Origin: Tepidanaerobacter acetatoxydans Re1
Lineage (GTDB): Bacteria; Bacillota; Thermosediminibacteria; Thermosediminibacterales; Tepidanaerobacteraceae
Assembly: GCF_000328765.2 (NCBI RefSeq)
Contig: NC_019954.2
Location: forward strand, 1,058,501 to 1,122,500
Length of the DNA: 64,000 nt
Direction of reading: 5' to 3'
Below are positions 30,455-52,910 of this stretch, piece after piece. A program made the translations under genes and the position numbers. Under the pieces are notes generated by a model. That model made no database searches. It saw only the letters and a list, made by a program, of their open reading frames with translations, and was not told where the DNA came from. The first letter of the stretch is position 1, and every line of letters starts with the position of its first letter.

Positions 30455-30530
30455 AAACAGGGCCTTTCTAGGCCCTCCAATACCATCTCTAGTATATCAA
30501 TATTGCTAGAAAAAAACAAGGAGGATAAAC

Positions 30531-33463: not shown

Positions 33464-33507
33464 AGAGTAGTATGCAATTTATGTGTAACAACGAAGGGAG
33501 AATGAGT

Positions 33508-33732: not shown

Positions 33733-33769
33733 TTGAACATTCCATAGAAACCATGAAGGAGGAATCCTT

Positions 33770-33955: not shown

Positions 33956-33984
33956 CTGAATACTACGAAGGCGGGGTATAAATA

Positions 33985-34785: not shown

Positions 34786-34786
34786 A

Positions 34787-34936: not shown

Positions 34937-35063
34937 AGTAAGAGAAAACTGCCACAGCTACCTACGGGACGGGTGCTGGCATTGCGTAGACTACGGCCTA
35001 TACTGGCCCGAAGATAAAAGTATACTTTGTAAGCGACAAGTCAGGGAGAGAAAGGAGAGAAAA

Positions 35064-35420: not shown

Positions 35421-35526
35421 CAAAGGATGTAAAAAATGAGAAACAATCATCTATAACCGGGGTAGGAACATGTATCGGCTTCGTATCCAACAGGAATCTA
35501 AGAAATATAAAGGAGGAACAATAAGG

Positions 35527-35715
35527 ATGAGCAAAGGTAATCCAGACAAAGTTTCTCCTTCACTTGCAAGAAGAGCACTTGAACTTGCAGGAGGAGATAG
35601 AAAGAAAGCATATTCAGAATGCGTTAAACTTTCTTTCCAAATAACAGGCAGAATAGCACCGGGGTTTGATAATAGAGACTTACAAGCATTCTATGAGGAG
35701 GTATTTGATAGATGA
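35527..35715 (+). CDS. Small phage protein, unknown
   Basis: The product has 62 residues from ATG 35527, with AAAGGAGGA upstream. It is helical (VSPSLARRALELAGGDRKKA). No domain is recognised. The stop overlaps the next start as ATGA. Confidence 0.55.
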   Translation: MSKGNPDKVSPSLARRALELAGGDRKKAYSECVKLSFQITGRIAPGFDNRDLQAFYEEVFDR

Positions 35716-35891
35716 ATAAATTTTCATTTGTAGCAAGCCTACCGCCAATCCAATCCGCAATCAGTGTTAGCGGTCAAGGTGACGGAGCAAGAATAAAGCT
35801 CGACATACCACAGTCGGAAATGCCAGCGGTAATAAACCTACAGCTGCTATCTGGGAAAGTTTTCAAGGTGACCATAGAGCCGGAGGAATGA
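35712..35891 (+). CDS. Small phage protein (59 residues), unknown
   Basis: ATG 35712 overlaps the preceding stop, with GAGGAGG upstream. The beta-rich 59-residue product starts MNKFSFVASLPPIQSAISVS and has GDGARIKLDIPQSEMPAVI. The coupling and coding-like composition support a real gene. No family is recognised. Confidence 0.6.
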   Translation: MNKFSFVASLPPIQSAISVSGQGDGARIKLDIPQSEMPAVINLQLLSGKVFKVTIEPEE

Positions 35892-35923
35892 CCGTTACAA
35901 AAAAGCAGAACTGGAGGATGGCA

Positions 35924-36001
35924 ATGAGGGTTAATATACCGGTATTCAAAAAAGTTGTTTGCAAAAAATGCAAAAGATGTACGGGAGACAAACCGAAATA
36001 G
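35924..36001 (+). CDS. Tiny cysteine-rich peptide
   Basis: The 25-residue frame starts at ATG 35924 with CTGGAGGATGG upstream. It contains VVCKKCKRCTGDK, a CxxCxxC cluster that could bind zinc. It is very short and could be fortuitous. Confidence 0.35.
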   Translation: MRVNIPVFKKVVCKKCKRCTGDKPK

Positions 36002-36083
36002 ACAGACATTACCGGAGCATCATGCAAGAGAGGCCTAAGGGAGGTAAGGGAGGGCTGCTGCAAGGGGAAAAGGAGGAGGAACT

Positions 36084-36496
36084 ATGGACAAAGAACAACT
36101 GTCTCAAATCAGGTATTTAAAAAGCGAGATAGAGATATTAAAAAAACAAATAGCTGATGTGGATTATAAAATTGCAACAGATAGCGTAAAGGGTTCTGAC
36201 CCATATTTCCCTTATAATGAAAGGTCATTTACAATTACAGGTATAAATTTCAAAGATTATAATCGCAGAGTAAGAAGATTACAAAGAAAGCTAAACAGAA
36301 GAATAGAGGAACTAATGGACTTGGTGGAAGAAACCAATGAGTTTATTGAAAGTATAGATGATAGCCTAATACGGCAAATAATAGCACTTCGATATATAAA
36401 CGCCTTTCTTGGGGACAAGTGGCGGCAAGTATAGGGGGAGGGAATACAGCAGACAGTGTGAGAAAAGTGGCTGAAAGGTTTTTAATGAAAAATTGA
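36084..36496 (+). pseudogene. Frameshifted late-regulator-like gene (DUF1492/ArpU type)
   Basis: The first frame (116 codons, AAGGAGGAGG upstream) encodes a coiled-coil N-terminus and IRQIIALRYINAF, the start of a sigma-region-4-like helix-turn-helix, and then stops at 36434. The +1-base frame continues WGQVAASIGGGNTADSVRKV and ends in ERFLMKN at 36496, exactly the missing helix-turn-helix. One base appears lost near the T-rich site at 36401-36410. Related proteins control late phage genes before terminase. Confidence 0.7.
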
Positions 36497-36553: not shown

Positions 36554-36578
36554 AAGGCATCGGGAAACCGGTGCTTTT
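36554..36578 (+). terminator. Terminator after the frameshifted regulator
   Basis: AAGGCATCGG, GAAA, CCGGTGCTTT forms a 10-bp stem with a GNRA-type tetraloop, followed by TTG. Confidence 0.7.
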
Positions 36579-36601
36579 GTAATACAAAAACAGGCCTTCA
36601 A

Positions 36602-37006
36602 TTATGGCCTGTCATGGATACCGAGTTTTTCTTTTAAAGCAGTTTGAAGCACCTGGGAAAAGTTAATACCAACCTTTTCAGCTCTAGTATTTAACCAGTT
36701 GGGTATAGTTAATGTTTTTTTAATGGCCCGACTATCGTTTAAATTACGATATTCTGTAGTATCAACAGAAATAAGATTTACAAATTCTTCTTTATCGCAG
36801 GATAAACTAAATATATCAGATGCCGGAGGAATGGGTTCGTTATTATCTTCAGCATCACAGAGCCATATAGATATAGCATCTTGTGCCATATCTAAAGCGT
36901 CAGGAAGATTTTTACCTTCAGTTATACAGCCGGGTAAATCTGGCACTTTGATAAAGTATTCTCCGCTTTCAAGAAGTTTAAATATAGCCGGATATACATA
37001 CTTCAT
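36602..37006 (-). CDS. hicB: HicB antitoxin
   Basis: The 134-residue protein has a HicB fold (YPAIFKLLESGEYFIKVPDLPGCITEGKNL, ALDMAQDAISIWLCDAEDN) and a C-terminal ribbon-helix-helix-like region (TLTIPNWLNTRAEKVGINFSQVL). It neutralises HicA and probably binds the operator upstream of hicA. It follows hicA by 36 bp on the same strand. Confidence 0.9.
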   Translation of the reverse strand: MKYVYPAIFKLLESGEYFIKVPDLPGCITEGKNLPDALDMAQDAISIWLCDAEDNNEPIPPASDIFSLSCDKEEFVNLISVDTTEYRNLNDSRAIKKTLTIPNWLNTRAEKVGINFSQVLQTALKEKLGIHDRP

Positions 37007-37762: not shown

Positions 37763-37814
37763 CATGCCCAAAACCCATATATACAAAACAACTCAAAATA
37801 AGCAGGTGGTGATA

Positions 37815-38537
37815 TTGGATGTAATCAGAGAAAAAGCAAAAAAGGATTATATGAGCGGTTTAAAATATAAAGATATCTGCGAAAAATATAACCTCAGCAT
37901 GAACACATTAAAATCTTGGGTGAAGAGACACAACTGGGCTGACGAGAGAAAAAACAAAGGCAAAAAGGGTGCACACAAAAACAAAAGGGGTGCACCCAAA
38001 GGTAATAAGAATGCTGTAGGTAATGACGGAGGGGCACCACCTAAAAACAAGAACGCCGAAACCCACGGATTCTTTTCTAAATATCTCCCGGAAGAGACAT
38101 TACACATAATGCAGGAGATAACCGAGAAGGATCCGCTTGATATTTTATGGGAGAATATCACCATCCAATATGCAGCTATTGTTAGGGCTCAAAGGATTAT
38201 GTATGTGACTGAAAAAGAAGAAATGATTAAGGAGCTCAAGAAGGAGAAGGAATTCACTACCCAATACGGCGGCGGCTCCGAAACAGAATGGGAATTTCAG
38301 TTTGCTTGGGATAGGCAGGCCACATTCTTGAAGGCTCAATCAAGGGCCATGGCTGAACTTCGCAATATGATTGCAAAGTATGATGAGTTGATGAAGTCTA
38401 GCCTTGCAACAGAAGAGCAACAGATGAGGATTGAGAAGTTGAAGGCTGAAGTAGACAAAATCAAGGAAGGCAAAGGAGATACAAATATTAGAGTTACCAT
38501 TGTAGACGACATAGAAGGTGATGCGAATGAGGGTTAA
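37815..38537 (+). CDS. Terminase small subunit
   Basis: The product has about 240 residues. The N-terminal helix-turn-helix is [24 protein letters not shown], then a basic Gly/Asn-rich linker ([30 protein letters not shown]) typical of PBSX-type TerS, then a helical oligomerisation region. It recognises the packaging site. TTG 37815 has GGTGGTGAT upstream; the longer frame from 37764 overlaps the terminator. It overlaps terL. Confidence 0.88.
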
Positions 38538-39780
38538 TCTTTCAGAAGTGATTGCGCCTTCTTTTTACGATTTACATGTAGATATAAAAAAGAATAAACA
38601 CACTGAATACATGCTTAAAGGTGGCAGGGGATCTACTAAATCATCCTTTGCAAGCCTAGAAATAATACTTGGCATGATGAGAGATGCAGAGCAAAGGGAA
38701 TTTACTAATGCAGTAGCATTAAGAAAAGTAAAAGATACCCTGAAAGACAGCGTATTTGAGCAATTAGCCTGGGCCATAGAAATACTCGGTGTTGGCCATC
38801 TATGGCATATACCTCAGTCAAAGCTTGAGATAACATATATTCCTACAGGTCAAAAGATCTTGTTCCGAGGTGCCGATAAGCCTAAGAAGATTAAATCAAC
38901 CAAGGTTAAAAAGGGCTATATAAAATATATTTGGTTTGAAGAATTAGACGAGTTTTACGGCCCTGAAGAATTGAGGATCATAAACCAATCACTAATGAGG
39001 GGCGGGGAGATATTTGTAGTTTTTTATACTTATAATCCGCCTAAAAGCTCTAGGTCATGGGTAAACCAAGAGGCTAAAACACCTAAGCCAGGTAGAAAAG
39101 TTCATCATTCAGATTATAGGAGCGTGCCTGAACACTGGCTGGGAAATGTATTTATTGCCGATGCAGAGCATCTAAAGAAGACCAATGAAATAGCTTACAG
39201 GCATGAGTATATGGGCGAAGAAGTCGGGACAGGGCTTGAAGTATTCACCAACGTAACACTAAGAGAAATCACAGATGAAGAGATTAAGACATTTGACAGG
39301 ATTAAGCAAGGGCTTGACTTTGGTTATGCTGTAGATCCGGTGGCATTTGAAAAAATGCACTATGATAAAACAAGAAGAAGGCTATATTTGTTTTATGAAT
39401 TCAGCGGAATACAAGTGTCTAACAGAAAGTTATACAACAGTATAAAACCTCACACTCAAAAAATGACAATAGCGGATAGCGCAGAGCCTAAATCTATTGC
39501 AGAGTTAAAAGGTTATGGCGTGAAAATAAAGGGAGCTAAGAAGGGGCCGGACTCAGTGGACTACGGCATTAAATTTTTATCTGAAGAGATTGAAGAAATA
39601 ATAATAGATCCGGCAAGATGCCCAAGGGCAGCCAAAGAGTTTATTAACTATGCCCTTGAGACAGACAAAAACGGGGAAGTTAAGAGTGAATACCCGGACA
39701 AGGATAATCACACCATAGATGCCACTAGGTATGCGTTAGAAGATGAAATGCGAGGCAGGGGACTATCAATACTCAAGTAA
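38527..39780 (+). CDS. Terminase large subunit
   Basis: The 417-residue Terminase_3 family protein has ATPase Walker [13 protein letters not shown], Walker B-like [12 protein letters not shown], coupling [13 protein letters not shown], and a C-terminal RNase H-like nuclease with [24 protein letters not shown] and [11 protein letters not shown]. It pumps and cuts DNA into the prohead. ATG 38527 (or 38521) follows AAGGTGATG and overlaps terS. Confidence 0.95.
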
Positions 39781-39793
39781 AGAAGGTGATAAC

Positions 39794-41236
39794 TTGTTTA
39801 ATTTTAAGAGTTTGTTCAGAAACAATATAAATATAATGACCACAGAAGAAATTTTATATAACGAAATCCAAGAGTTTAACTCTAGTGATAAAAGGGCCTG
39901 GATGGTTGAAGGCGATAAATACTACCGTGTCGAAAACGATATCTACAACAGAAGGATTACAAGGCAGACTGAAAGCGGGGAAGTTACCGATAGATCTAAG
40001 GCCAACAATAAGCTAGCCCATGGGTTTATAAAGAACCTAGTAGATGAGAAAATAGGATATCTCTTAACAAAGGATTATGCGTTGAAATGTGATAATGAGG
40101 AATATATTAAGAAGGTTAAAGATGCTCTAGGCAAATACTTTCAATACACTCTTACTAGGCTGGGCTATGAGGCGTCTAACAAAGGTATTGCATGGTTACA
40201 GGTATATATTGACGAACAGGGCAACTTTGGAACTATGCTGATACCATCGGAACAGTGTGTGCCTTTGTGGAAGGATAACACCCACACTGAACTAGATGGA
40301 ATGATTAGGTTTTACGTGCAAACGGTGTATGAGGGCAAGGAGAAGAAGAGAATTACTAGAGTAGAATATTATACAGAAAATGAAGTTTATTTCTATGTGA
40401 TGGATGGAGAGCATCTAATCCCTGATATCGAACAACATGAAGGAGGGCCTATATTACACTATAGAAAAGGTGAAGAAGGCAGAGGATGGGGGAAGGTACC
40501 TTTCATAGGCTTTAAAAATAATGCAATAGAATATCCAGATGTACGATTCATAAAGTCATTAATAGATAGCTATGATAAGTCCAGGAGTGATATAGATAAT
40601 TTTATTGAAGAAACCAAGAACCTTATCTATGTATTAAAAGGTTATGGTGGCCAGGATTTAGGAGAATTTATGAGGGATTTAAACTATTATCGTGCTATAA
40701 AAATTGATGACGTTAAAGATGGTGGAGTAGACACGCTAACTCCAAAGATAGACATTCAAGCGGCAAAAGAGCATTTTGAACAGCTTAAAAGAGACATAAA
40801 CGAATTTGGGCAGGGAGTACCGAAGGATTTAGATAAGTTTGGGAATTCACCTAGTGGCATATCACTTAAATTCTTATATGCAGGGTTGGATTTAAAATGT
40901 AATCACCTAGAAGTGGAATTCAAGAGAGCGTTTGAGCAGTTGCTTTACTTTGTGAATGTTTACTTAGCCGAAGATGGTCAGGGCGCTTACGATGAGGATG
41001 TAGAGCTTATATTTAATAGAGATATACAAATCAATGAAACCGAGGCTATCAGCAATTGTGTAGCTTCAGAAGATGTAATAAGTCAAGAAACCATTATAGC
41101 CAATCATCCATGGGTTAGCGATGTGGAAGGTGAATTAGAGAAATTAAAGAAACAAAAAGAAGAAAAAGCCAAAGTAGCAGCAAAGGCCTTTGGCACCGAT
41201 AAATTTAGCAAAGTAGATGGTGAAGATGAGGAGTGA
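39794..41236 (+). CDS. Portal protein (SPP1 gp6-like)
   Basis: The 480-residue protein starts at TTG 39794 after GAAGGTGAT. It is of the Phage_prot_Gp6 type: NNKLAHGFIKNLVDEKIGYLL, GIAWLQVYIDEQGNFG, LIDSYDKSRSDIDNFIEETK and the C-terminal GNSPSGISLKFLYAGLDLK. It forms the dodecameric DNA channel. It follows terL and overlaps the minor head gene. Confidence 0.93.
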   Translation: MFNFKSLFRNNINIMTTEEILYNEIQEFNSSDKRAWMVEGDKYYRVENDIYNRRITRQTESGEVTDRSKANNKLAHGFIKNLVDEKIGYLLTKDYALKCDNEEYIKKVKDALGKYFQYTLTRLGYEASNKGIAWLQVYIDEQGNFGTMLIPSEQCVPLWKDNTHTELDGMIRFYVQTVYEGKEKKRITRVEYYTENEVYFYVMDGEHLIPDIEQHEGGPILHYRKGEEGRGWGKVPFIGFKNNAIEYPDVRFIKSLIDSYDKSRSDIDNFIEETKNLIYVLKGYGGQDLGEFMRDLNYYRAIKIDDVKDGGVDTLTPKIDIQAAKEHFEQLKRDINEFGQGVPKDLDKFGNSPSGISLKFLYAGLDLKCNHLEVEFKRAFEQLLYFVNVYLAEDGQGAYDEDVELIFNRDIQINETEAISNCVASEDVISQETIIANHPWVSDVEGELEKLKKQKEEKAKVAAKAFGTDKFSKVDGEDEE

Positions 41237-42809
41237 TAAGTATTGGGCTAATAGAGCAAAGGAGAGAATGAATTATTATCACAGGAATAGCGATAAGACC
41301 ATTCAAACTATAACTAAAGCCTATGATAAAGCTATAAGAGATATTGAGGAAGATATAAAAAATATATTTGATAAATATGCGTCAGATAGTAATTTATCTT
41401 ATCAAGAGGCAAGAAGGTATCTAAATCAAAGGATACCTAATTTTATTTTAAACCTTATGAGACAATATTATCCTAATATAAAAAACGAGACTATAAAAAG
41501 ATGGATGTTAGCAAAAGTCAATGCACCGGCATATAAGGCTAGAATAACAAGATTAGAAGCTTTAAAAGAAACTGTATATTTTAGGTGTAAGCAGATAGCA
41601 GATGTGGAGATAACTCTTAGCGAAAGGCAGTATATTGATACAATTAACCAAGCTTACTACAGGAACATACATGACATTCATAAAGGCTTGGGAACTGGAT
41701 TCGATTTTGCTGCACTGCCGACTAAAACCATAGAACAGATACTCAAAAATCCTTGGAGCGGTAAGCATTTTTCCGAAAGAATATGGGGCAACACTGATGT
41801 ATTAGCTGAAAAACTAACTGAGACAATTACTGCAGGTTTTATGAGTGGCAAAAGCTATTACAAGATGGCTAAAGAGCTTGAGGAATATACTGAATATGGC
41901 AAGTATGCAGCAATGAGACTAGTGAGAACAGAGTCTACTTATATGGCTAATATGGCAGAGATAGAAAGTTACAAAGAATGTGGAATAGAGAAATATATCT
42001 ATATATCTACTTTGGATAATAGGACAAGCGAGATATGTCAGAAGTTAGACAGAAAGGTATTTAAGGTAAGTGAAGCAGAACCAGGGAAGAATCTTCCTCC
42101 CATGCATCCAAATTGCAGGAGCACAACAGGGGCTTACCTTGGCCCGGATACATTAAAGGACACCCAAAGAAGAGCTAGAGACCCAGTGACAGGTAGGACT
42201 TATCTAATTCCGGCTGATATGGATTATAAAGAGTGGTATCAAAAATATGTAGTAGATAAATACGGGCAAGACCAAGCTGAGGTAATGAAAAAGAAGATAT
42301 TAAACAAAGTTAGTGATAAGAAACAGTATGAAAAGTATAAAGAGGTTTTGGGAAAGGATATGCCTAATTCCTTTGATAAATTTCAAGATTTGAAGTATAA
42401 TGATATTAAGAAGTGGGAGCAAACTAAGTCGTTTTACAAGCAGAAAATTGATGGCTGGATACCGGATAACATGACTATAAAAATATGGAGCAATAACAAG
42501 AATGCCATTGATTGGCAGGCTATAGACTTTGCTCCTAAAAAGTTTAAAGATCACTACCAAAGACATAGTTCTGATTTTGGGAATATAACTGAAAAAGAAT
42601 ATAGTGTAATGGCCAAGGATTTACTAAATAGTAAAATTACTGGAGACATTGATGGATTTACCACAAAGCAAGGTTATATTTTTAGATATGACAAAAGCAA
42701 TAATAGTTTTGCAGTTGCTAGACCCGATGGGGTAATAGCAACATTCTTTAAGCCTGATAAAGGATTGGAATATTGGGAAGGGGAGAAAAAGAAATATGAA
42801 CCCAAATAA
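41226..42809 (+). CDS. Minor head protein with C-terminal toxin-like nuclease domain
   Basis: The protein has about 527 residues. The N-terminal 340 residues are SPP1 gp7/Mu F-like: GYMSGKSYYKMAKELEE-type GFMSGKSYYKMAKELEE, RLVRTESTYMANMAEI, STLDNRTSEICQKLD and LPPMHPNCRST. The last 110 residues are unrelated to head morphogenesis. They include KFKDHYQRHSSDFGNITEKE, GYIFRYDKSNNSFAVARPDG and VIATFFKPDKGLEYWE, a layout seen in barnase/EndoU/colicin-like (BECR) toxin domains of polymorphic toxins. A CPCC-family gene overlaps the 3' end and may be the immunity partner. Confidence 0.85.
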   Translation: MRSDKYWANRAKERMNYYHRNSDKTIQTITKAYDKAIRDIEEDIKNIFDKYASDSNLSYQEARRYLNQRIPNFILNLMRQYYPNIKNETIKRWMLAKVNAPAYKARITRLEALKETVYFRCKQIADVEITLSERQYIDTINQAYYRNIHDIHKGLGTGFDFAALPTKTIEQILKNPWSGKHFSERIWGNTDVLAEKLTETITAGFMSGKSYYKMAKELEEYTEYGKYAAMRLVRTESTYMANMAEIESYKECGIEKYIYISTLDNRTSEICQKLDRKVFKVSEAEPGKNLPPMHPNCRSTTGAYLGPDTLKDTQRRARDPVTGRTYLIPADMDYKEWYQKYVVDKYGQDQAEVMKKKILNKVSDKKQYEKYKEVLGKDMPNSFDKFQDLKYNDIKKWEQTKSFYKQKIDGWIPDNMTIKIWSNNKNAIDWQAIDFAPKKFKDHYQRHSSDFGNITEKEYSVMAKDLLNSKITGDIDGFTTKQGYIFRYDKSNNSFAVARPDGVIATFFKPDKGLEYWEGEKKKYEPK

Positions 42810-43008
42810 ACAATGTTCATGTTGCGGCCAATATACTTTAGAAAAAGATTCCATCTTCGAAATTTGTAAGGTTTGTGGCTGGCAGGATGATGGTTTGCAA
42901 AATGATAATCCTGACTACAAAGGTGGGGCTAATAAAATGAGCCTAAATGAAGCAAAAGAAGCCTACAAAAGAAGGAAAAGCAATATAGATAAGCACCTTA
43001 CTGGATAA
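42796..43008 (+). CDS. CPCC-family cysteine-rich protein, putative immunity factor
   Basis: The 70-residue protein has a Cys_rich_CPCC domain: CSCCGQYTLEKDSIFEICKV, then CGWQDDGLQNDNPD and NKMSLNEAKEAYKR. The two Cys pairs should hold zinc. It overlaps the minor head gene by 14 bp and is followed by its own terminator. CPCC proteins recur beside secreted toxins, so protection of the lysogen from the toxin-like domain is inferred. Confidence 0.7.
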   Translation: MNPNKQCSCCGQYTLEKDSIFEICKVCGWQDDGLQNDNPDYKGGANKMSLNEAKEAYKRRKSNIDKHLTG

Positions 43009-43027
43009 AACGGTAGGTGCTTTTATT
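42991..43027 (+). terminator. Terminator after the CPCC gene
   Basis: AAGCACCT at 42991-42998 pairs with AGGTGCTT and is followed by TTATT. The stem overlaps the last codons of the CPCC gene. Confidence 0.75.
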
Positions 43028-43071
43028 ATGCTATAATAGACCCAGATAAAAGCTATGCAGGGGGGTTAATT

Positions 43072-43806
43072 ATGGATTTAAGAAGGAAAGTAGAGGACAT
43101 ATTCGATATTGCTGCCCAGCCGACCGTTGATATTGTGTCTAGTATGTTTTTAGAGGGGGTAGCGGGTTCAGTGGTGCAGGGGGTGACGAGTGCAATGTTA
43201 GCATATAAGCAAAAGCGTTCCGAGCGAATGATTGAAGAGTTTATGATTGAAACTAGGAAAAGGCAACAAGAGTTAGAGGAAAAGTTGATTGAATTAGATG
43301 AGGAAAGGTTTATCGAGATCAAGGGCAAATATTTTGGTTTAGTCTTAGATTATGTTATGGAGACCAAACAGGAAGAGAAGATAAAATATATTACCAATGG
43401 TTTTATAAACCTCACTTCTATGGAAAAACTACAAGAAGATGTCATATTAATATATTATGATATTTTGGACGAGCTGAACATACTGGATATAAGGGTTTTA
43501 AAGCTTTACGATTACTTTAGTAGATCTGAAAGCTATGTGGACATCTTAAAAGACGCCAATATAAGCTACGATCAATATGCTCTGATCCAAAACAAACTTG
43601 AAAGGTTAGGTCTCATAGAAAGTAAAGCCCAATCCAAATATGACGAACTATTTGATAATGTAAAAAACATGGGAGATTACCTGGTGAAGCTTAGCAACGG
43701 GAAAAAAGCAACACTTAAATTCAAAAAATCAAGCTCCGGCAGTATGAATTCTTTTGTTTTAACAAAACTGGGGAGACAGTTTCTTGATTTTTTTACAGGT
43801 GATTAG
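43072..43806 (+). CDS. Autonomous (moron-like) protein of unknown function
   Basis: The 244-residue protein starts after GGGGGG-type site GCAGGGGGG and has TATAAT at 43032-43037 upstream. The N-terminal part has a hydrophobic, Gly-containing stretch (SSMFLEGVAGSVVQGVTSAM), then a long charged helix, and a C-terminal winged-helix-like region (YVDILKDANISYDQYALIQN, FVLTKLGRQFLDFF). It is flanked by terminators at 42991-43027 and 43805-43829 in the middle of the head module, which marks it as inserted cargo expressed in the lysogen. Confidence 0.6.
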   Translation: MDLRRKVEDIFDIAAQPTVDIVSSMFLEGVAGSVVQGVTSAMLAYKQKRSERMIEEFMIETRKRQQELEEKLIELDEERFIEIKGKYFGLVLDYVMETKQEEKIKYITNGFINLTSMEKLQEDVILIYYDILDELNILDIRVLKLYDYFSRSESYVDILKDANISYDQYALIQNKLERLGLIESKAQSKYDELFDNVKNMGDYLVKLSNGKKATLKFKKSSSGSMNSFVLTKLGRQFLDFFTGD

Positions 43807-43829
43807 CATCCTTTTAGAGGGTGCTTTTA
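43805..43829 (+). terminator. Terminator after the moron-like gene
   Basis: AGCATCC at 43805-43811 pairs with GGGTGCT at 43819-43825, followed by TTTAT. Confidence 0.75.
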
Positions 43830-43852
43830 TTATTCCCTAAAGCGAGGTGAAG

Positions 43853-43933
43853 GTGTTGGCAACAAGTGTGCAGATAACAGCAATTATATGTGCGACTTTG
43901 ATAATATTAGTATGGATGGGAAGGGGTGAGTAA
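43853..43933 (+). CDS. Small single-pass membrane peptide (26 residues)
   Basis: GTG 43853 (or TTG 43856) follows AGCGAGGTGAAGG and encodes a peptide that is mostly one hydrophobic helix (VQITAIICATLIILVWM). It ends directly against the ATG of the next gene. Function is unknown. Confidence 0.5.
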   Translation: MLATSVQITAIICATLIILVWMGRGE

Positions 43934-44221
43934 ATGGCAAGGTACAGGAAGAAACCAGTTATAATCGAGGCTGAGAAATTCAAAAGTGGATTAGAGGATG
44001 GATTCGATATTGTAGATATTATAAAACTCGAAGGGCAAAACCTTAACTTAGATGAACTAGAATATTTTGATACCGACTATGGAAAGAAATATCCATACAT
44101 TAGGACATTGGAAGGCAAGCACTATGTTCATAAAGGAAGTTATATTATTACAGGAGTGAAAGGTGAAAGATACCCTTGTAAGGCAGACATATTCGAAATA
44201 ACATACGAAAAAGTAGATTAA
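43934..44221 (+). CDS. PGDYG-type conserved phage protein
   Basis: The 95-residue protein begins MARYRKKPVIIEAEKF and ends in KGSYIITGVKGERYPCKADI followed by FEITYE, the pattern of a common small phage protein family (PGDYG). The role is unknown. It has GGGGTGAG upstream and is followed by a terminator. Confidence 0.8.
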   Translation: MARYRKKPVIIEAEKFKSGLEDGFDIVDIIKLEGQNLNLDELEYFDTDYGKKYPYIRTLEGKHYVHKGSYIITGVKGERYPCKADIFEITYEKVD

Positions 44222-44243
44222 GACCAAATAAGGTCTTTTTTTA
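44220..44243 (+). terminator. Terminator before the scaffold gene
   Basis: AAGACC, AAATAA, GGTCTT, TTTTT. Confidence 0.8.
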
Positions 44244-44332
44244 TTGCTCTTTTTAAAAGTTTGTAGAGCATAAAGAACAAAGTAACTCCCAAGTCGGAGA
44301 GCGACTATAAAAATCTATGGAGGTATGAAAGA

Positions 44333-44899
44333 ATGGATTGGTTAAAAGAATTGCTTAAGAAAGCAGGAATTGAAGAGGCCAAGGTTGATGAAATAGTAGG
44401 AAATATAAACAAAGAGCTGCCGAAATACTTTATACCTAAGGATAAATATAACGAGGTTAATGAGGCTAAGAAACAGCTTGAATCTGATATCAAAGAGAGA
44501 GATAAACAGCTCAAAGACCTTGGGGATAAAGTAAAAGGTAACGAGGAACTAGAAAAGCAAGTAAAAGAGCTACAAGAGACCAATAAAAGGGCCGCTGTAG
44601 ATTATGAAGCCAAAATCAAAAATATTACTCTAGACAATGCTATCAGATTGGCCCTGAAAGACAACAAAGCTAAATATGACGACTTATTGATGAGTAAGTT
44701 TGACAGAGAAAAATTAAGAATCAAAGATGATGGCAGTATTGAAGGCCTAGACGAGCAGATTAAGTTTTTAAAGGAAGGCTATAAAGACTTATTCGAGCAG
44801 CCATTAGGCGGACAAACTCCCAACAATACTGGGGATAATCCTGATGGTGGCGAGTTAAAGCAAGTAGCCGATACTATAAGGCAAAATTTAGGATTTTAG
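44333..44899 (+). CDS. Capsid scaffolding protein (GP20-like)
   Basis: The 188-residue protein has a long coiled coil (NEAKKQLESDIKERDKQLKD, EELEKQVKELQETNKRAA), then DNAIRLALKDNKAKYDDLLM and an acidic tail. It matches phage minor structural/scaffold GP20 proteins and lies directly before the capsid gene. It should guide prohead assembly. Confidence 0.88.
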   Translation: MDWLKELLKKAGIEEAKVDEIVGNINKELPKYFIPKDKYNEVNEAKKQLESDIKERDKQLKDLGDKVKGNEELEKQVKELQETNKRAAVDYEAKIKNITLDNAIRLALKDNKAKYDDLLMSKFDREKLRIKDDGSIEGLDEQIKFLKEGYKDLFEQPLGGQTPNNTGDNPDGGELKQVADTIRQNLGF

Positions 44900-44918
44900 A
44901 AAGGGAGAGTGTTAAGTA

Positions 44919-45863
44919 ATGAATCTTCAACTGTTTGCTATTCCTAATGTTTTAGAATATGCAAAGTTATTTATGCAGCAGCTTGATAAGCAGGTTGTTG
45001 CACAGGCGACATCCGGATGGATGGAAGCTAACGCAGGATTAGTAAAGTATAACGGTGGTAATGAGTGTAAAATCCCTATGATTGACATGGATGCATTGGG
45101 GGATTATGACAGAACTAATGGTTTTGTGGATGGAGCGGTAACACTAGAATACCAGACCAAAACACTTACACAGGATAGAGGCAGGACATTCCAATTAGAT
45201 AGAATGGATGTAGATGAGACTAATTTTGTGGCAACTGCTGCTAATGTAATGGGTGAGTTTCAAAGAACTCATGTAATACCCGAGATTGACGCATACAGGT
45301 ATTCTTCTATTGCAACACAGGCCATAGCAAAAAGCGCAGCAGTAGGAGGATACACTCCAGCTGACGCTACTATATTGGCAAAGCTTAAAGAGGATATTTA
45401 TGCTATATACGATGTGGCGGGGGAGATACCTCTAGTTATTACTATGAATATGCAGGTAGCTGCAATATTAGAGAACTCAACGGAATTGGCTAAACATTTA
45501 TCAGTAATAGACTTCACGCAGGGAGATATTAAAACTACTGTAAGAGGAATAGATAATAACCCTATTATTAAAGTTCCTTCTTTAAGGATGAAAACCAAAT
45601 ACCAGTTTCTAGATGGCAAAACGTCCGGCCAAGAAGCTGGAGGATTTACACCTGATACTACAGCTAAAAATATCAATTGGATTATAACTCCTAGAACTGC
45701 TCCAATTGCAGTGAGCAAAACAGATGTAATTAGAATATTTGAGCCAAAAGTGAATCAAAAAGCAGATGCTTGGAAGATTGATTATAGAAAGTATCATGAC
45801 CTATGGATTAAAGACAATCAATTTAAGGCTATTCGAGTAAATATTAAAGAAGCATTGGCGTAG
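44919..45863 (+). CDS. Major capsid protein
   Basis: The 314-residue protein begins MNLQLFAIPNVLEYAKLF. HK97-fold-like features include GGNECKIPMIDMDALGDYDR, TKTLTQDRGRTFQLDRMDVD and IIKVPSLRMKTKY. Its position between scaffold and connector genes supports the call. AAGGGAGAG lies upstream. Confidence 0.9.
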   Translation: MNLQLFAIPNVLEYAKLFMQQLDKQVVAQATSGWMEANAGLVKYNGGNECKIPMIDMDALGDYDRTNGFVDGAVTLEYQTKTLTQDRGRTFQLDRMDVDETNFVATAANVMGEFQRTHVIPEIDAYRYSSIATQAIAKSAAVGGYTPADATILAKLKEDIYAIYDVAGEIPLVITMNMQVAAILENSTELAKHLSVIDFTQGDIKTTVRGIDNNPIIKVPSLRMKTKYQFLDGKTSGQEAGGFTPDTTAKNINWIITPRTAPIAVSKTDVIRIFEPKVNQKADAWKIDYRKYHDLWIKDNQFKAIRVNIKEALA

Positions 45864-45876
45864 GTGGTGATGATTG

Positions 45877-46008
45877 GTGTTTAAGCTAGAAAGGTTAAAT
45901 GTAGTCAAGATTGCTGAGGCAGAGCATGAAAGAGATAAACTTATTAGTAAAGGGTTTAAAGAAGTGAAAGAGGAAAAGAAAGACACCAATAAGAAGGCTG
46001 CTAAATAG
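45877..46008 (+). CDS. Small capsid-adjacent protein (43 residues)
   Basis: GTG 45877 (or TTG 45874) follows TAGGTGGTGATGA and encodes a basic, helical product (VFKLERLNVVKIAEAEHERD ... KKAAK). Similar short genes often follow the major capsid gene. Its end forms part of a terminator hairpin. Confidence 0.55.
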   Translation: MFKLERLNVVKIAEAEHERDKLISKGFKEVKEEKKDTNKKAAK

Positions 46009-46020
46009 TGGCCTTCTTTT
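45992..46020 (+). terminator. Hairpin after the capsid gene pair
   Basis: AGAAGGC at 45992-45998 pairs with GCCTTCT at 46011-46017, followed by TTT. Confidence 0.6.
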
Positions 46021-46037
46021 CTTAAGTAGGTGATTTC

Positions 46038-46340
46038 ATGGAGCAATTGGATAAACTTAAAATTAAATTAGGCATACCATTAGAAGATACATCGCAAGAT
46101 GAGTTATTAAATCTTTATTTAGAAGATGCTAAGGATACCATTTTGGAATTAACACATTTATCAGAAGTGCCAGTAAACCTTCTAAGGGCACAAGTAGAGT
46201 TGGCTATTATTTACTATAATAAGCAAGGTATTGAGTGCCAAACAGGCCATAGTGAAGGTGGAATAAACAGAAACTTTGAAGAAGGCATTCCTGAAAGCAT
46301 AATGAAGAAGATTAGAAGCGTAAGAAGATTGCCGAGGTGA
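46038..46340 (+). CDS. Head-tail connector protein (gp6/gp15-like)
   Basis: The 100-residue protein has the phage connector pattern LKIKLGIPLEDTSQDELLNL, LEDAKDTILELTH and IPESIMKKIRSVRRLPR. It would dock under the portal as an adaptor ring. TAGGTGAT upstream of the ATG. It is the first of four consecutive connector and tail-completion genes. Confidence 0.85.
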   Translation: MEQLDKLKIKLGIPLEDTSQDELLNLYLEDAKDTILELTHLSEVPVNLLRAQVELAIIYYNKQGIECQTGHSEGGINRNFEEGIPESIMKKIRSVRRLPR

Positions 46341-46344
46341 TTAT

Positions 46345-46677
46345 ATGAGACTTAGGCAAAGGGATTTAAAACCTTATACAGTAAAAAAACACGGTACCTT
46401 CAAGGATGCTGATGGAACAAAATATACAGGCTATGAAAAGGAAGGCAGGGCTATAAAAGCCAATATCCAACCAGCAGGCGGGAAAATGCTGTCAGAAATT
46501 TATGGCCTGAGACTTGCCTATATGCTTACTATGTATTGTCAAAAAGGAACGGAATTAAGCGAGAATGACGGAGTTTGTGTATGTGTTGACGAAAGCCAAG
46601 ACCCTGATTATAAAATAGTTGCTATAAGACCTTGGAATACCCATATAGTAGCTGACTTAGAGAAGGTGAAACAATGA
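46345..46677 (+). CDS. Head closure / head-tail joining protein
   Basis: The 110-residue protein includes YTVKKHGTFKDADGTKYTGY, MLSEIYGLRLAYMLTMYC and IVAIRPWNTHIVADLE. It fits small head closure proteins by size and place. It overlaps the next gene by 4 bp. Confidence 0.7.
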   Translation: MRLRQRDLKPYTVKKHGTFKDADGTKYTGYEKEGRAIKANIQPAGGKMLSEIYGLRLAYMLTMYCQKGTELSENDGVCVCVDESQDPDYKIVAIRPWNTHIVADLEKVKQ

Positions 46678-47201
46678 GTAGTGTGCAAGGCATTGACAGA
46701 TTACTAAAGAAACTGAATAGCTTGGGTGGGGATGTTAATAAAGCAGTTAAGAGAGGTGTTACTGAAGCCACAAGAAAGATCCAGAGAGATGCAAAAGATT
46801 TCGCTCCATTTAATTATGGGCAGTTAAAAGATGGCATAGTAACCGAAATAATAGAGGAAGAAGATAAAATAGTAGGAATAGTAAAAAGCACAGCTGGTCA
46901 TAATCAGTATGTTGAATTTGGCACGGGGCCAGTTGGTAGAGCATCACCTAAAGACCTACCACCGGGAATAAACCCCAAATACGTTGAAGGCATGTGGTGG
47001 ATACATGAAAGCCAAATAGACCCAGATGTAGCTGAAAAATATGGATTTATCAAGATAGAAACAGAGCAAGGGGTTTTTTATGGAACATATGGACAAAGAC
47101 CACATCCATATATGTATCCAGCTATGAAACAAAATGAGAAATATGTTAAAGAAACCATAAAGGGTGAGGTAAGGATGGAAATAAAGAAGGTGGGTAAGTA
47201 A
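46674..47201 (+). CDS. HK97 gp10-like tail completion protein
   Basis: The 175-residue protein has GIDRLLKKLNSLGGDVNKAV, APFNYGQLKDGIV, AGHNQYVEFGTGPVG and RPHPYMYPAMKQNEKYV. The YVEFGT and RPHPY motifs are characteristic of the HK97 gp10 family. It completes the tail end that joins the head. Confidence 0.92.
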   Translation: MSSVQGIDRLLKKLNSLGGDVNKAVKRGVTEATRKIQRDAKDFAPFNYGQLKDGIVTEIIEEEDKIVGIVKSTAGHNQYVEFGTGPVGRASPKDLPPGINPKYVEGMWWIHESQIDPDVAEKYGFIKIETEQGVFYGTYGQRPHPYMYPAMKQNEKYVKETIKGEVRMEIKKVGK

Positions 47202-47554
47202 TGTATGATGTCAAGCCGGTCATAAATAAACTAATGGAAGAGATTGTAGGAGAAGATAAAGTATCGGATGCTTACCCTGAAGATTTTACCAATCCTCCCT
47301 ATATATCATTTTATGAGCAATTCAACAAAGACTATATTAAAAAAGGCCCTGAATATTTGACTGAAATAGTAATTCAAATAGATATATGGCATAACAGAAG
47401 CACAGGTGCATTAGCCCAGCAGGTGAATGAGAAAATGAACTCTATAGGCTTTAGAAGGGAATTTGCAAGGGACATACCCGACCCTAACATAAAACATAAG
47501 ACTATGAGGTTTAGGGGTATTGTAGACAAGAGAAATCTATTAGTATATCAATAA
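47201..47554 (+). CDS. Tail terminator-like protein
   Basis: The 117-residue protein includes AYPEDFTNPPYISFYEQFNK, VIQIDIWHNRSTGALAQQVN and FARDIPDPNIKHKTMRFRG, the pattern of phage tail terminator (gp17/DUF3168-like) proteins. It follows the gp10-like gene with a one-base overlap. Confidence 0.8.
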   Translation: MYDVKPVINKLMEEIVGEDKVSDAYPEDFTNPPYISFYEQFNKDYIKKGPEYLTEIVIQIDIWHNRSTGALAQQVNEKMNSIGFRREFARDIPDPNIKHKTMRFRGIVDKRNLLVYQ

Positions 47555-47571: not shown

Positions 47572-47997
47572 ATGGCAGGAATAAGTTATAATGAAACTAA
47601 AATTTCATATAAAGAAGGCAGTATGACTGACTTTGAAGAAATCGATTTGTTAATGGAAGTACCTGAAATAGGTGGAGACCCTGAGAAGATTGATGTTACT
47701 ACTCTATCGGATAAACATAAGAAATACATCCCTGGCATATCTGATTTAGGGGATTTAGATTTTGTGTTTCTGTTTGATAATAGCACATCTACATCAAATT
47801 ATAGGATATTGAAGGGATTGCAAGACAATGATGAACTTGCAACGTTTAAAGTGGAGTATCCTGACGGAACAGGTCATCAGTTCGATGCGTATGTAACGGT
47901 TAAGCTTGCGGGCGGTGGTGTAAATACTCCGGCAACATTTACGGCTAGTATGTTTTTGCAATCTGATATAACTACAACTAATCCGACTGAAACGTAA
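47572..47997 (+). CDS. Major tail tube protein
   Basis: The 141-residue protein has EIDLLMEVPEIGGDPEKIDV, TTLSDKHKKYIPGISDLGDL and FDAYVTVKLAGGGVNTPATF, as in siphovirus tail tube proteins. It is the last intact structural gene: no assembly chaperones, tape measure or tail tip follow. Confidence 0.88.
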   Translation: MAGISYNETKISYKEGSMTDFEEIDLLMEVPEIGGDPEKIDVTTLSDKHKKYIPGISDLGDLDFVFLFDNSTSTSNYRILKGLQDNDELATFKVEYPDGTGHQFDAYVTVKLAGGGVNTPATFTASMFLQSDITTTNPTET

Positions 47998-48018: not shown

Positions 48019-48047
48019 TAGACTTTTCTCAAAACTGATGTTATTAT
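48019..48047 (+). promoter_or_regulatory. Promoter of the type I toxin mRNA
   Basis: TAGACT at 48019-48024 and TATTAT at 48042-48047, 17 bp apart, predict an mRNA starting near 48054, at the left arm of the long inverted repeat. Confidence 0.5.
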
Positions 48048-48110
48048 AAGGACAAGGTAATCGGCAGGCAGGTGTGGTTGCCACTTTCCCTCGTAAGGGA
48101 GGTGGTGCTT

Positions 48111-48194
48111 ATGACTACATATGAAGCATTGTCTTTGATGATAATGTTTGCAATGTTCGTCATAGCCGTTCTGAAATTCGGGACTAAAAGATAA
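48111..48194 (+). CDS. Holin-like type I toxin (TxpA/BsrG-like, 27 residues)
   Basis: ATG 48111 encodes MTTYEALSLMIMFAMFVIAV plus a short basic tail ending KFGTKR, the pattern of putative holin-like toxins. Membrane insertion and depolarisation are the known activity of this class. The ribosome site AAGGGAGGTGG is paired with CCACTTTCCCT just upstream, as expected for a translation-silenced toxin mRNA. The antisense partner lies at 48188-48276. Confidence 0.8.
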   Translation: MTTYEALSLMIMFAMFVIAVLKFGTKR

Positions 48195-48276
48195 CCACCC
48201 TGCTTACCCCAGGGTGGTTATGGCTTAAACCGTAACTATTTTGGGCAACCGCACCTTGCGGTGCTGATTACCTTTA
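48188..48276 (-). ncRNA. Antisense antitoxin RNA
   Basis: On the minus strand, TTTACT (complement of 48304-48309) and TATAAT (complement of 48282-48287), 16 bp apart, predict an RNA starting near 48276. It would end after the perfect stem AACCACCCTG/CAGGGTGGTT (48193-48219), which is followed on that strand by ATCTTTT. The RNA is complementary to the 3' end of the toxin mRNA, the geometry of RatA and SR4. Confidence 0.7.
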
Positions 48277-48416
48277 CATATATTATAACACGAAAGATAG
48301 AAAAGTAAACATTCTACATAAGTATTCTTAGAGTTATATTGTAAAAAGCTGAATAATGTTGAAATTCTTTCCTGCATATGTATGCTAAAGTTAGCATACA
48401 TATGGGAGGGGTATCG

Positions 48417-48905
48417 ATGAAAAAAATACTAATAATATGTTTTATAGTCCTATTAGTTTTGACTGGATGCAGTGCCACTAAAGATGAATCAGACAACAAT
48501 CAGAATGCAATAGCAGATAAAGTTGGAGAGGAAAATATAGAAAAAAAGAAAGATGAACAGGCAGAAGTCAAGGAAAGTGAAATAGGAAAGCTTACAATTT
48601 TTAAGAAAAACGAGGAAGTTGAAGCAGCCCAAGAAATAGGGCCATTTATTGTGAAGATTAATAAAATGCAAGTTGCAAAATTGGAAACCAGTGAAGACTA
48701 TAAAAGTATGTTCGATGATAAAGATGCAGTCACTATTTTAGCATTAGAGGTAGAGGTTGAGAACAAGAGCACTGAAACTAATTCAATTTATCCAGACCAG
48801 GGGACAATTGTTACAAATACAAAAGAACAAAATGATGCACATATATTCCTATCAGATGATGTGGGAGGGGAATTTATAGGCGAATGGTACTATGTCAATA
48901 AATAG
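48417..48905 (+). pseudogene. Lipoprotein gene truncated by the IS element
   Basis: The product has 162 residues from ATG 48417 (GGGAGGGG upstream). The signal ends in a lipobox LTGC. A low-complexity Lys/Glu linker and the start of a DUF4352/DUF5067-like beta domain follow (EIGPFIVKINKMQVAKLE, TILALEVEVENKS). The frame ends at TAG 48903-48905, inside the IS terminal repeat, after GGEFIGEW, where this domain normally continues. The C-terminal strands are lost. Confidence 0.65.
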
Positions 48906-48932
48906 TACAACCCAAACGGGTACAATTCCTCA

Positions 48933-49769
48933 TTATCCAACTTTCGCTAAAAACTTTCTTAACTGAGCATAATAATAATCTTCATACTCCTTTGGCGATA
49001 AATATCCACAGTGACTATGGCTTCTAACAGTATTATAAAAGGTCTCAATATATTCAAAAACAAGTTTATAAGCATGGCTGAAGTTCTTGATTTTAAAGCA
49101 ATATAACCACTCTCTCTTGATTAAGGCGTGAAAGGATTCGATACAAGCATTTTGCCATGGACTAGCTTTTTGAGAATAGCTAGGCATAATTGTATTTAAA
49201 GCTTCAAGGTAGTTTCCACAGACATACTGAGATCCTCGATCAGAGTGAAGAACCAAGGGCTGTGTAGTACGTCTGAGTTTCTTGGCCTCAAGAACACACT
49301 CGACTACCCATTTTGCTTCAAGCGTTTTCGACAGTCGCCAAGCGATAATTTTTCGTGAGAATAAGTCCATAATGCTAGTCAAATAAGCAAATCCCTCTTT
49401 GGTGTAAATATAGGTGATATCTGAACACCAAATTGCGTTAGGTTTTTCGGGGTTGAATTGTTCTTTGAGAAGATTTTTAAGGTTGCTATCAAAGTTAGGG
49501 TCTATTGTAGTTTTAGTAAAAGGCTTGATATAACGGGCTTTAATTTTCATTTCCCTCATGTAGTGGAGGGCGGTCTTTTCTGCGATTGTGATGCCCATTT
49601 TTTCAAGCTCCTTCGTGATTTTTGGAACGCCTATATTTGCTTTGATTGTAAGTAAATGTCGAGGATTAATCTTTATCTTCTGTTTACGTGTTGGCTTATT
49701 ATCTTTACTGGATTCCCTTTCCTTGAAGCTGTTGTAGCCGCTTCGAGATACGCCTAGAATCCGCAGCAC
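48933..49769 (-). CDS. IS3-family transposase OrfB (rve integrase domain)
   Basis: The 278-residue DDE transposase has the first Asp in IWCSDITYIYTKEGFAYL, the second Asp in LVLHSDRGSQYVCGNY, and the Glu in NACIESFHALIKREWL. An HTH_21-like region (NIGVPKITKELEKMGI) precedes the core. The frame is -1 relative to OrfA and open further upstream, so the active product is probably an OrfAB fusion made by frameshifting at seven consecutive A residues (complement of 49874-49880). Confidence 0.93.
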   Translation of the reverse strand: MLRILGVSRSGYNSFKERESSKDNKPTRKQKIKINPRHLLTIKANIGVPKITKELEKMGITIAEKTALHYMREMKIKARYIKPFTKTTIDPNFDSNLKNLLKEQFNPEKPNAIWCSDITYIYTKEGFAYLTSIMDLFSRKIIAWRLSKTLEAKWVVECVLEAKKLRRTTQPLVLHSDRGSQYVCGNYLEALNTIMPSYSQKASPWQNACIESFHALIKREWLYCFKIKNFSHAYKLVFEYIETFYNTVRSHSHCGYLSPKEYEDYYYAQLRKFLAKVG

Positions 49770-49849
49770 CCCGCTGACATTAAGGCGGCGTAGGCCTTCT
49801 CGCTTTAATTCTTCTTCAAGCTTTGATGTTTGCGAGAAGATCTCCTTGG

Positions 49850-50134
49850 TCAGTCGCCCAGGATGCTGATGGCTTTTTTTAAGATTTCAAGAGCATCTTT
49901 TGTATCCTGCAATTCCCTTCTGAGGCGAGCATTCTCTTTGGTTTCATCGGATGCATAGTTTCCGGAACCTCGATGAACCTCTCCTGTCTCTTTGGCTTTT
50001 TTTATCCAACCATGGAGCGTGCTCAAGCTGATGCCTAGATTGCACGCACAAGCATTAACACTTAGATCAGAGTGATCATGGACATAGGCTAAAGCATCTT
50101 CCTTAAACTGCTTGGTAAATTGTCTTCTTACCAT
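49850..50134 (-). CDS. IS3-family transposase OrfA
   Basis: The product has 94 residues. The HTH is FKEDALAYVHDHSDLSVNAC and ACNLGISLSTLHGWIKKAKE, followed by a leucine-zipper-like C-terminus (ENARLRRELQDTKDALEILK). ATG 50134 has AGGAGG at a good spacing. It binds the IS ends and supplies the N-terminus of the fusion transposase. Confidence 0.92.
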   Translation of the reverse strand: MVRRQFTKQFKEDALAYVHDHSDLSVNACACNLGISLSTLHGWIKKAKETGEVHRGSGNYASDETKENARLRRELQDTKDALEILKKAISILGD

Positions 50135-50212
50135 TTTTCTCATCCTCCTGAATATAGTTTATGGTTTCCTGGAGAAATTGTCCATGTTTAACTTGTACTA
50201 TTATTATACTAG

Positions 50213-50401
50213 CACGGGACTGCTTTTATATCGAATCCGGAGGAAGAGAAACTCCTATCCGATGCTGAGTTTCAGGAGCACGTATCCACAGCGATAGCAA
50301 AAGGTGTGTGTAAGTATGCCGGAATTGAATACAAAGAGGTATCAAAGGTGCCAGAAACACAAAGCGACTATGCTGAAAATACTGAGGCAAACATAGTTTG
50401 A
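50213..50401 (+). pseudogene. 3' remnant of an endolysin (Amidase_3)
   Basis: Directly right of the IS, an open frame without a start encodes AFISNPEEEKLLSDAEFQEH then VSTAIAKGVCKYAGIEYKEV and ends at TGA 50399-50401. FISNPEEEKLL ... A.A.G..KY is the C-terminal end of N-acetylmuramoyl-L-alanine amidases of the Amidase_3 family used as phage endolysins. The N-terminal catalytic part, including zinc ligands, is gone. Confidence 0.8.
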
Positions 50402-50432: not shown

Positions 50433-51326
50433 ATGTTTGCTTTTTTAAAAGAACTTGTTTTTCCTATTGCGGTATCATTTCTGAAAGATATTGTTTCAAA
50501 GATATTTTCTCCTTTTAATGATAAGAAAATAATAAAGATTAGGATGGAAAAGTTAATTGATGTAGTTAGTCCATTAGATTTGGAACTAGTAGAATATTAT
50601 ATTGGGGAACTAAGGCAATACGAAAAAGAGATATCTCTCGCAGAATATAAATCTATGACAGTTGAAGATATTAATAGAGCAATTGATAAAGAAACAAAAT
50701 TATACCAAGACTATATATTAAACAATGTGTCTTTTAAGAATAGAGATGCAGAAGCTCTATTTTATTGTCTTATACATGAGGATTTAACTAGTAGGAATAT
50801 TATAAGCTATGGATTAATTTCTATTTATTTTTCCATAATAATGATATTACTTATCAGTATATTATACAAATTATTAATCCATTTACTTTGCTCTGGATTT
50901 CATGTTTTACGGACTTGGGTTGCGTTATTCATAAAGAAGAACAATTTTGTTTCGAATAAAATTAGTGAATTATGTGTCTCGTTTAGGCATTTTATTGATA
51001 GTCAGGCAACAGAAGGTGTTAAATTAATGGAAGTTGAGAACGATGTTGGCACTGATATTATAAAAGGCTTATCATATTTTATTGGAATTTTTATTGTAAT
51101 ACCAGTTGTCCTTTATTTTATTGCTGACATAATATATAACATTATTAGGCTTGATATTGTGTTAGGGTTAGTGCTTATTCTAATATTTTTTGGGCCTTTA
51201 ATACAAAGCAATAAAAGAGTTTATAACATTAATAAGGATATGAGGAAAAAGGAATTTATAAATGCGCAACAATCTTTATTGACTAAAGAGCACTTTCTCA
51301 AGAACAGTAATAATAAATTGGATTAA
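50433..51326 (+). CDS. Membrane protein of unknown function (cargo)
   Basis: The 297-residue protein starts at ATG 50433 after GGGGGGGTGA. A cytoplasmic helical region (residues about 1-120, with ELRQYEKEISLAEYKSMTVE) is followed by a membrane helix near 130-150, a second near 210-230, a third near 245-265 and a charged C-terminus. No family is recognised. It lies between the lysis remnant and integrase, a common site for lysogenic conversion genes. Confidence 0.6.
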   Translation: MFAFLKELVFPIAVSFLKDIVSKIFSPFNDKKIIKIRMEKLIDVVSPLDLELVEYYIGELRQYEKEISLAEYKSMTVEDINRAIDKETKLYQDYILNNVSFKNRDAEALFYCLIHEDLTSRNIISYGLISIYFSIIMILLISILYKLLIHLLCSGFHVLRTWVALFIKKNNFVSNKISELCVSFRHFIDSQATEGVKLMEVENDVGTDIIKGLSYFIGIFIVIPVVLYFIADIIYNIIRLDIVLGLVLILIFFGPLIQSNKRVYNINKDMRKKEFINAQQSLLTKEHFLKNSNNKLD

Positions 51327-51839: not shown

Positions 51840-52733
51840 TTACTCTTTTTTCATCGGCATCAATTTATTTAGAGGACTTGCCGTATAATGCACTTCATCC
51901 ACATCACTTTTGCTCAAATACACATACTTCTCCGTCATTTCCATTGTGGTATGGCCTAACATCTGTTGAAGATGGAAAGCACTTCCTTTGTTTCGCAAAA
52001 ATAGCAGGGCAAAAGAATGCCGGAGTTGATAGGGTGTGACCTTTTTGCCTATCTTCTCACCATATTCTATCATCCTTCTACCCCACTGATTCTTTCCCAA
52101 CTTTCCACCATTCTCTGTGCAAAACACCGGAACAGTGTCAGGCCAGTATTTATGCCGGGATTGTATCAATTCAGCAATGGCAAGAACAGTTTGAGGGAGG
52201 ATAGGCAGGATTCGTCTTGTCCTTGTTTTTGCCACTTCTGCCGGAATTTCTATCTGCCCTGTCTCAAGGTCAAAATCCTTTTTCAGCAATCCAAAAGCCT
52301 CACCGGGCCGGATACCGGTATCAAGTGTAAGCACAATAAGAGCATAATCCCGAAGGCCGGCAAAGGTTGTTATGTCGGGAGCCTTGAGGAGTTTTGCCAG
52401 AGTTTCTTCGTCGGATGCCCGTGGCAGTTTTTCTTCTTTTCGCCGCTTGATATGACATATAGGATTCTGTTCAATGATACCCTTTTCATCTTTCAGCCAC
52501 AAAAAGAACGTATTCAGGTTTTTCCGGCGGCTATTGAACGTTGCCGGCGCAAGATGACCGATGCTTGAAAAGTATTCTAAAACAGCCATTTCTAGCCTTT
52601 CATCGTCTTTTAAAGCATTTGGATACGCTTTGAAGAATAAACCAATATTGTATTCGTAATCTTGCAATGTTCTTTCTGCTAAACCCTGAGCCTTTTTATA
52701 TAGTAAAAACATCTTCAAGTGCTTTTTCCACAT
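51840..52733 (-). CDS. int: Tyrosine recombinase integrase
   Basis: The product has 297 residues from ATG 52733, with AGGAGG upstream. A SAM-like N-terminal domain (LLYKKAQGLAERTLQDYEYN) precedes the catalytic domain with LDTGIRPGEAFGLL (Arg), TPYQLRHSFALLFLRN (Arg; Tyr in place of the usual first His), QQMLGHTTMEMTEKYVYL (His, nucleophile Tyr). It integrates the element at tRNA-Glu, whose repeat begins 90 bp upstream of its start. Confidence 0.95.
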   Translation of the reverse strand: MWKKHLKMFLLYKKAQGLAERTLQDYEYNIGLFFKAYPNALKDDERLEMAVLEYFSSIGHLAPATFNSRRKNLNTFFLWLKDEKGIIEQNPICHIKRRKEEKLPRASDEETLAKLLKAPDITTFAGLRDYALIVLTLDTGIRPGEAFGLLKKDFDLETGQIEIPAEVAKTRTRRILPILPQTVLAIAELIQSRHKYWPDTVPVFCTENGGKLGKNQWGRRMIEYGEKIGKKVTPYQLRHSFALLFLRNKGSAFHLQQMLGHTTMEMTEKYVYLSKSDVDEVHYTASPLNKLMPMKKE

Positions 52734-52823
52734 AATAAAAAATCCTCCTAATTTGAAGGAGGGCGGCACCCTTGAAACTATTTTAATTTATCGTCAACTT
52801 CTGTAACCTGCGCCTATACTGTA

Positions 52824-52910
52824 TTTGGTAGCCATAGGGGGATTCGAACCCCCGTTACCGCCGTGAGAGGGCGGCGTCCTGAACCCCTAGACGATATGGC
52901 CGTGGCTGCG
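52824..52910. repeat. Right attachment site repeat
   Basis: The 87-bp sequence is identical to 26043-26129. It contains all of tRNA-Glu and the last 8 bases of tRNA-Gln, which continues intact to the right, so this end keeps the original tRNA-Gln/tRNA-Glu order. Confidence 0.93.
52826..52901 (-). tRNA. tRNA-Glu (CTC), right copy
   Basis: The sequence is identical over 76 nt to the copy at 26045-26120, with anticodon CTC and encoded CCA. It lies 1 bp downstream of tRNA-Gln on the same strand and should be co-transcribed with it. Confidence 0.95.

Follow-up and report, generated by a model that had tools for sequence, protein, structure and literature searches.

The window, that is the whole stretch of 64,000 nucleotides that was analysed, corresponds to positions 1058501-1122500 of a single-contig genome of 2.76 Mb. 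It contains a prophage at 26043-52910 (26.8 kb, or about 25 kb without the IS element it carries) that is bordered by a direct repeat with a tRNA-Glu gene in each copy, the integrase gene lying directly inside the right repeat:

26043-26129, no strand: left attachment repeat, 87-nucleotide perfect direct repeat with 52824-52910; holds a tRNA-Glu (CTC) gene at 26045-26120, minus strand
51840-52769, minus strand: tyrosine integrase, intact ORF (PF00589, phrog_1)
52824-52910, no strand: right attachment repeat; holds a tRNA-Glu (CTC) gene at 52826-52901, minus strand

A near relative from the same genus (G011) has flanks that are 94.5-98.5% identical, a single tRNA-Glu gene and, at this site, neither the prophage nor the integrase; about 3.2 kb of other sequence are found there. 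This different sequence (L219, G011:C89:29817-33041) is located between rnr and tRNA-Glu, includes 79 bp with 84% identity to window positions 36557-36633 and is perhaps the remnant of another element at the same tRNA-Glu site.

The prophage has the hallmarks of a temperate phage (integrase, attachment repeats, repressor, terminase, portal and capsid), and the following genes are still present outside the region around the IS element:

26195-36434, no strand: regulation and replication region with an ImmA-like peptidase, the defence candidate PDC-S19, repressors, ERF, DnaB and SSB (ORFs, Pfam, PADLOC)
37764-47554, plus strand: genes for packaging, head and head-tail connection, all with open reading frames (Pfam, PHROGs; synteny with the related phages L009 and IPP31)
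47572-47997, plus strand: tail tube protein, with which the structural genes end (PF08813, phrog_158; 74% identical to L009)
48111-48194, plus strand: Hol_Tox peptide of 27 amino acids, occupying the cargo slot behind the tail tube (PF16935, E=1.7e-11)
50433-51326, plus strand: membrane protein of 297 amino acids, between the amidase remnant and the integrase (no Pfam, PHROG or PADLOC match)

The order of the structural genes is putative small terminase, large terminase (PF04466), SPP1-type portal (PF05133), MuF-like protein, scaffold, major capsid protein (phrog_422), connectors, tail terminator and tail tube. At 42252-43008 (plus strand), the MuF-like protein carries at its C-terminus about 185 amino acids that the L009 homologue (348 amino acids) lacks, and a small Cys_rich_CPCC protein (PF14206, E=1e-20) follows; the arrangement is reminiscent of a toxin domain and a matching immunity protein. 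Beside the repressor, a protein with DUF3644 and an EC042_2821-like endonuclease (26910-27911, minus strand) was identified by PADLOC as the candidate defence family PDC-S19 (E=1e-139). The region of the Hol_Tox peptide (48038-48317, plus strand) matches sequence that is repeated across many genomes from this family, pointing to a widespread type I toxin-antitoxin-like element.

Downstream of the tail tube, the Hol_Tox peptide is followed by a lipoprotein gene, the IS element and the remnant of an amidase gene:

48378-48884, plus strand: phage lipoprotein gene, 3' end cut by the IS (phrog_3727; homologue in phage CBP1)
48885-50217, transposase on the minus strand: complete IS3-family element of 1333 bp (ends from comparison with the copies L188-L195, L158 and L160-L162)
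48933-49769, minus strand: OrfB of the IS, rve transposase with visible DDE residues (PF00665; also HTH_21)
49850-50143, minus strand: OrfA of the IS, HTH_Tnp_1 (PF01527)
50218-50401, plus strand: remnant of an Amidase_3 endolysin gene, the 3'-terminal 60 codons (50219-50401; PF01520 profile positions 143-173 of 174)

The IS looks complete by its coding layout: orfB is read in the -1 frame, and there is an A7G slip site at IS position 338, inside the overlap between the orfB frame (open from 332) and the end of orfA (368). The ends of the element were set with divergent copies at unrelated sites, two of which (L189 and L190) are complete and flanked by 4-bp target duplications (CAAC and CTCC). 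All compared copies read ...GACATAG(T/G)ACC(C/A) at the orfB side, and the closest copies have (G/C)CGTG(T/C)TAG... at the orfA side. Terminal inverted repeats with 31-nucleotide arms, 77% complementary, are found near both IS ends; these arms, which point to 48901, were dropped as the ends themselves, as other copies share bases further out. A sequence-only reading of this DNA had correctly recognised the IS3 element and placed it at 48901-50401; its real extent is 48885-50217 and everything beyond 50217 is phage DNA. The same reading had seen no target-site duplication, and this holds with the corrected ends: the flanks are CGAA on the left and GACT on the right, and a shift of the outer base by one on either side still yields no duplication. 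Taken alone, the missing duplication is weak evidence, because another full copy elsewhere (L188) appears without one too. Its coding and end features are the basis for placing the element in the IS3 family, since duplications are expected to be lost at deletion junctions.

Each end of the IS interrupts an ORF, and the two ORFs come from different parts of a phage genome; the two broken genes, which the sequence-only reading had named correctly, can still be read. On the left side, the lipoprotein has 169 native residues, followed by six codons (WYYVNK) that come from the IS and a stop codon at 48903-48905. No relative of this lipoprotein was found in a scan of viral contigs; tblastn then identified one in Caldibacillus phage CBP1, which has 209 amino acids and aligns up to residue 163, indicating that about 46 residues are lost in the window gene. 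On the right side, the phage sequence resumes after the IS at TAFISNP, within what reads ...VETAFISNP in the amidase of G311. Four full Amidase_3 genes, with which the remnant was compared, are present elsewhere in the genome, one of them inside a second prophage.

What has been lost between the two broken genes can be deduced by comparison with related phages. A megablast search with the head region returned no match among phage records, and more sensitive searches were required. The nearest relative, L009 (capsid 87% and tail tube 74% identical), continues after the tail tube with a cargo gene, a pair of genes at the place of the chaperones (one of them phrog_183), a tape measure gene (phrog_1535, E=4e-115) and tail proteins. 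Streptococcus phage IPP31, which, like similar Terminase_3 / SPP1-type-portal siphoviruses, has the terminase-to-tail-tube order in common with the window prophage, differs in that it goes on from the tail tube (about 43% identical) to a chaperone, tape measure, Dit-like protein, PblB, holin and amidase. A DUF6096 tail chaperone is found at most about 0.75 kb from the tail tube in all tail-tube relatives that are readable downstream. Where a gap exists between tube and chaperone, it holds unrelated cargo genes: a secreted protein of about 200 amino acids in L045, a Pmp3-like protein in L063 with similar ones in L048, L054 and L069, and a membrane-flanked-domain protein in L009. The window lipoprotein gene therefore occupies a slot where cargo is normally found, and the left end of the deletion falls within this gene.

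The distance between tail tube and amidase start is 12.5 kb in IPP31, and 10.1 kb separate the tail tube from the matching amidase position in L186 (on the same contig as L017). We thus estimate from these gene maps that about 10-13 kb were lost: the sequence-only reading, with about 15 kb, had been right about a large loss and somewhat high in its figure. It had also seen that the structural genes end at the tail tube, which agrees with the run of genes from terminase to tail tube in the prophage. The IS thus marks a junction between sequences that are not adjacent in relatives, and has no target duplication, which is how an IS-associated deletion is recognised; the IS-linked deletion that had been proposed is supported by the gene order of the relatives and by the broken genes at both IS ends, and the comparison with related phages recommended along with it gave the predicted outcome.

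Among 47 relatives with at least 7.5 kb of sequence downstream of the capsid gene there was no tailless one: all 47 have tail-type genes, and 39 have an ORF of the size of a tape measure. The other eight (L046, L053, L058, L059, L073, L075, L081 and L086) are viral contigs of the same capsid family with no ORF of at least 500 amino acids at the tape-measure position; their ORFs of about 430-440, 155, 220, 330 and 360 amino acids have the order expected for a contractile tail, a reading by ORF size and order and not by family search. Neither an undeleted prophage nor an earlier IS insertion was found among 13 genomes of the family, with G011 lacking the prophage, and as no undeleted sister strain was found, the ancestral state is deduced from phages that are 43-74% identical in the tail tube.

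A second IS copy or the missing module elsewhere in the genome, which the sequence-only reading had suggested to look for, was not found: apart from the window IS, the genome has no full copy, family and protein searches identified no homologous tail module, the L009 tape measure had no match and the tail tube matched only itself. A relic of about 66 bp, 91% identical to the orfB end of the IS, is found about 37 kb left of the window (L002, G000:C1:1021583-1021648). The second prophage, at about 2504217-2541780, has its own terminase, portal, tail and amidase; it is similar to the window prophage in its tail terminator (32% identical), weakly in its integrase and weakly in one small protein, and is otherwise unrelated. 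Its tape-measure gene (L202, G000:C1:2510852-2515432) is split by about 1.2 kb with an ORF of 319 amino acids that is homing-endonuclease-like by eye; there is a weak match to a group I intron (22 bits, with a family cut-off of 50).

We consider it very probable that the locus is the result of an IS-associated deletion in a siphovirus prophage integrated at a tRNA-Glu gene: an IS3-family insertion, followed by the loss of the sequence from the lipoprotein to the amidase gene. The prophage, a siphovirus of the Terminase_3 / SPP1-type-portal type, would have integrated at the tRNA-Glu gene, with the lipoprotein gene as cargo in the usual slot that separates the tail tube from the tail chaperone. 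Into this prophage an IS3-family element would then have inserted, and an IS-associated deletion would have removed the 3' part of the lipoprotein gene, the tail chaperones, the tape measure, the tail tip and fibre genes, the holin and most of the endolysin (amidase) gene, with one IS left exactly at the junction. Directly visible are the junction, the absence of the genes, the IS in its intact form and the attachment sites; from these we infer in which order, and by which molecular route, the events took place. Candidate routes are an adjacent deletion from one IS by replicative transposition, homologous recombination between two directly oriented IS copies, and an IS insertion that was coupled to a rearrangement. 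The end product alone cannot discriminate between them, and we would favour the adjacent deletion because of the precedent of IS150, a member of the IS3 family: in the long-term experiment with E. coli, target duplications were present at none of 14 IS150-associated deletions and at all 69 simple insertions, and the deletions were explained as adjacent deletions beside an existing IS (PMC11708052). These deletions in E. coli B resemble the window locus in that an IS3-family element marks the junction where a large segment was lost and the target duplication is missing, and the size of the window deletion falls into the reported range of 14 bp to 48.9 kb (PMC11708052); different are the host and the IS subgroup, and the window deletion is known from a single genome, in its final state.

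The tail and lysis genes could also have been lost earlier by ordinary illegitimate recombination, with the IS inserting later at the scar. Prophage decay without the help of an IS does occur and there is a single IS copy, but a later insertion would have needed to strike the scar exactly and should have left the same 3-4 bp on both sides of the element, while the flanks are CGAA and GACT. Mainly because this target duplication is missing, we regard insertion into an old scar as improbable.

Even less credible is that the element is a satellite similar to the capsid-forming PICIs, making its own heads and obtaining tails and lysis from a helper, perhaps the second prophage (2504217-2541780). 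Head and packaging genes, integrase and attachment sites are indeed intact while tail and lysis genes are absent, and a prophage with a tail module is present in the same genome. However, PICIs of this type have no tail structural genes of their own, while the window element has kept its tail tube and tail terminator, which would be superfluous if tails were stolen; the truncation of the lipoprotein and amidase genes points to accidental loss; all 47 relatives mentioned above have tail-type genes; the proposed helper resembles the element in little more than a tail terminator; and about 25 kb without the IS is above the average of 14 kb for capsid-forming PICIs (PMC10803314). Going by what is said of Alqurainy et al. 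2023 in PMC10803314, these PICIs share with the window element the head genes without tail or lysis genes, and the window element differs by its own tail tube and terminator, the broken genes at the IS junction, its larger size and the lack of conserved tailless relatives among those found. That the IS deletion created a proto-satellite, which still excises, replicates and packs heads of its own and from time to time borrows tails and lysis from the second prophage, would be a snapshot of capsid-forming satellites arising from phages, and is just as hard to believe.

As the product of an IS-associated deletion, the prophage is filed as defective, because the complete tail and lysis modules of an intact tailed temperate phage are absent. 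The deletion had been said to have frozen the prophage, which is too strong, as the integrase gene and both 87-bp attachment repeats are intact. Judged by the genes that are left, the element is perhaps still able to excise and replicate and might be able to make heads, while tailed virion assembly and self-driven cell lysis should be lost. Defective prophages, described as grounded or cryptic (PMC6379469), have likewise lost lytic functions and kept regulatory and cargo genes; grounding is defined there by the loss of excision, whereas the window prophage keeps integrase and attachment sites and has lost tail and lysis. The defence candidate PDC-S19 and the CPCC-type small protein beside the extended MuF-like protein could favour retention of the remnant.

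Inactivation of a prophage by an IS3-family deletion is an ordinary and already documented route, and the locus is a clean, textbook-type case of it, with both broken genes still readable. The deletion explains why the prophage stops at the tail tube, and it is a warning against calling such a prophage a new tailless element.
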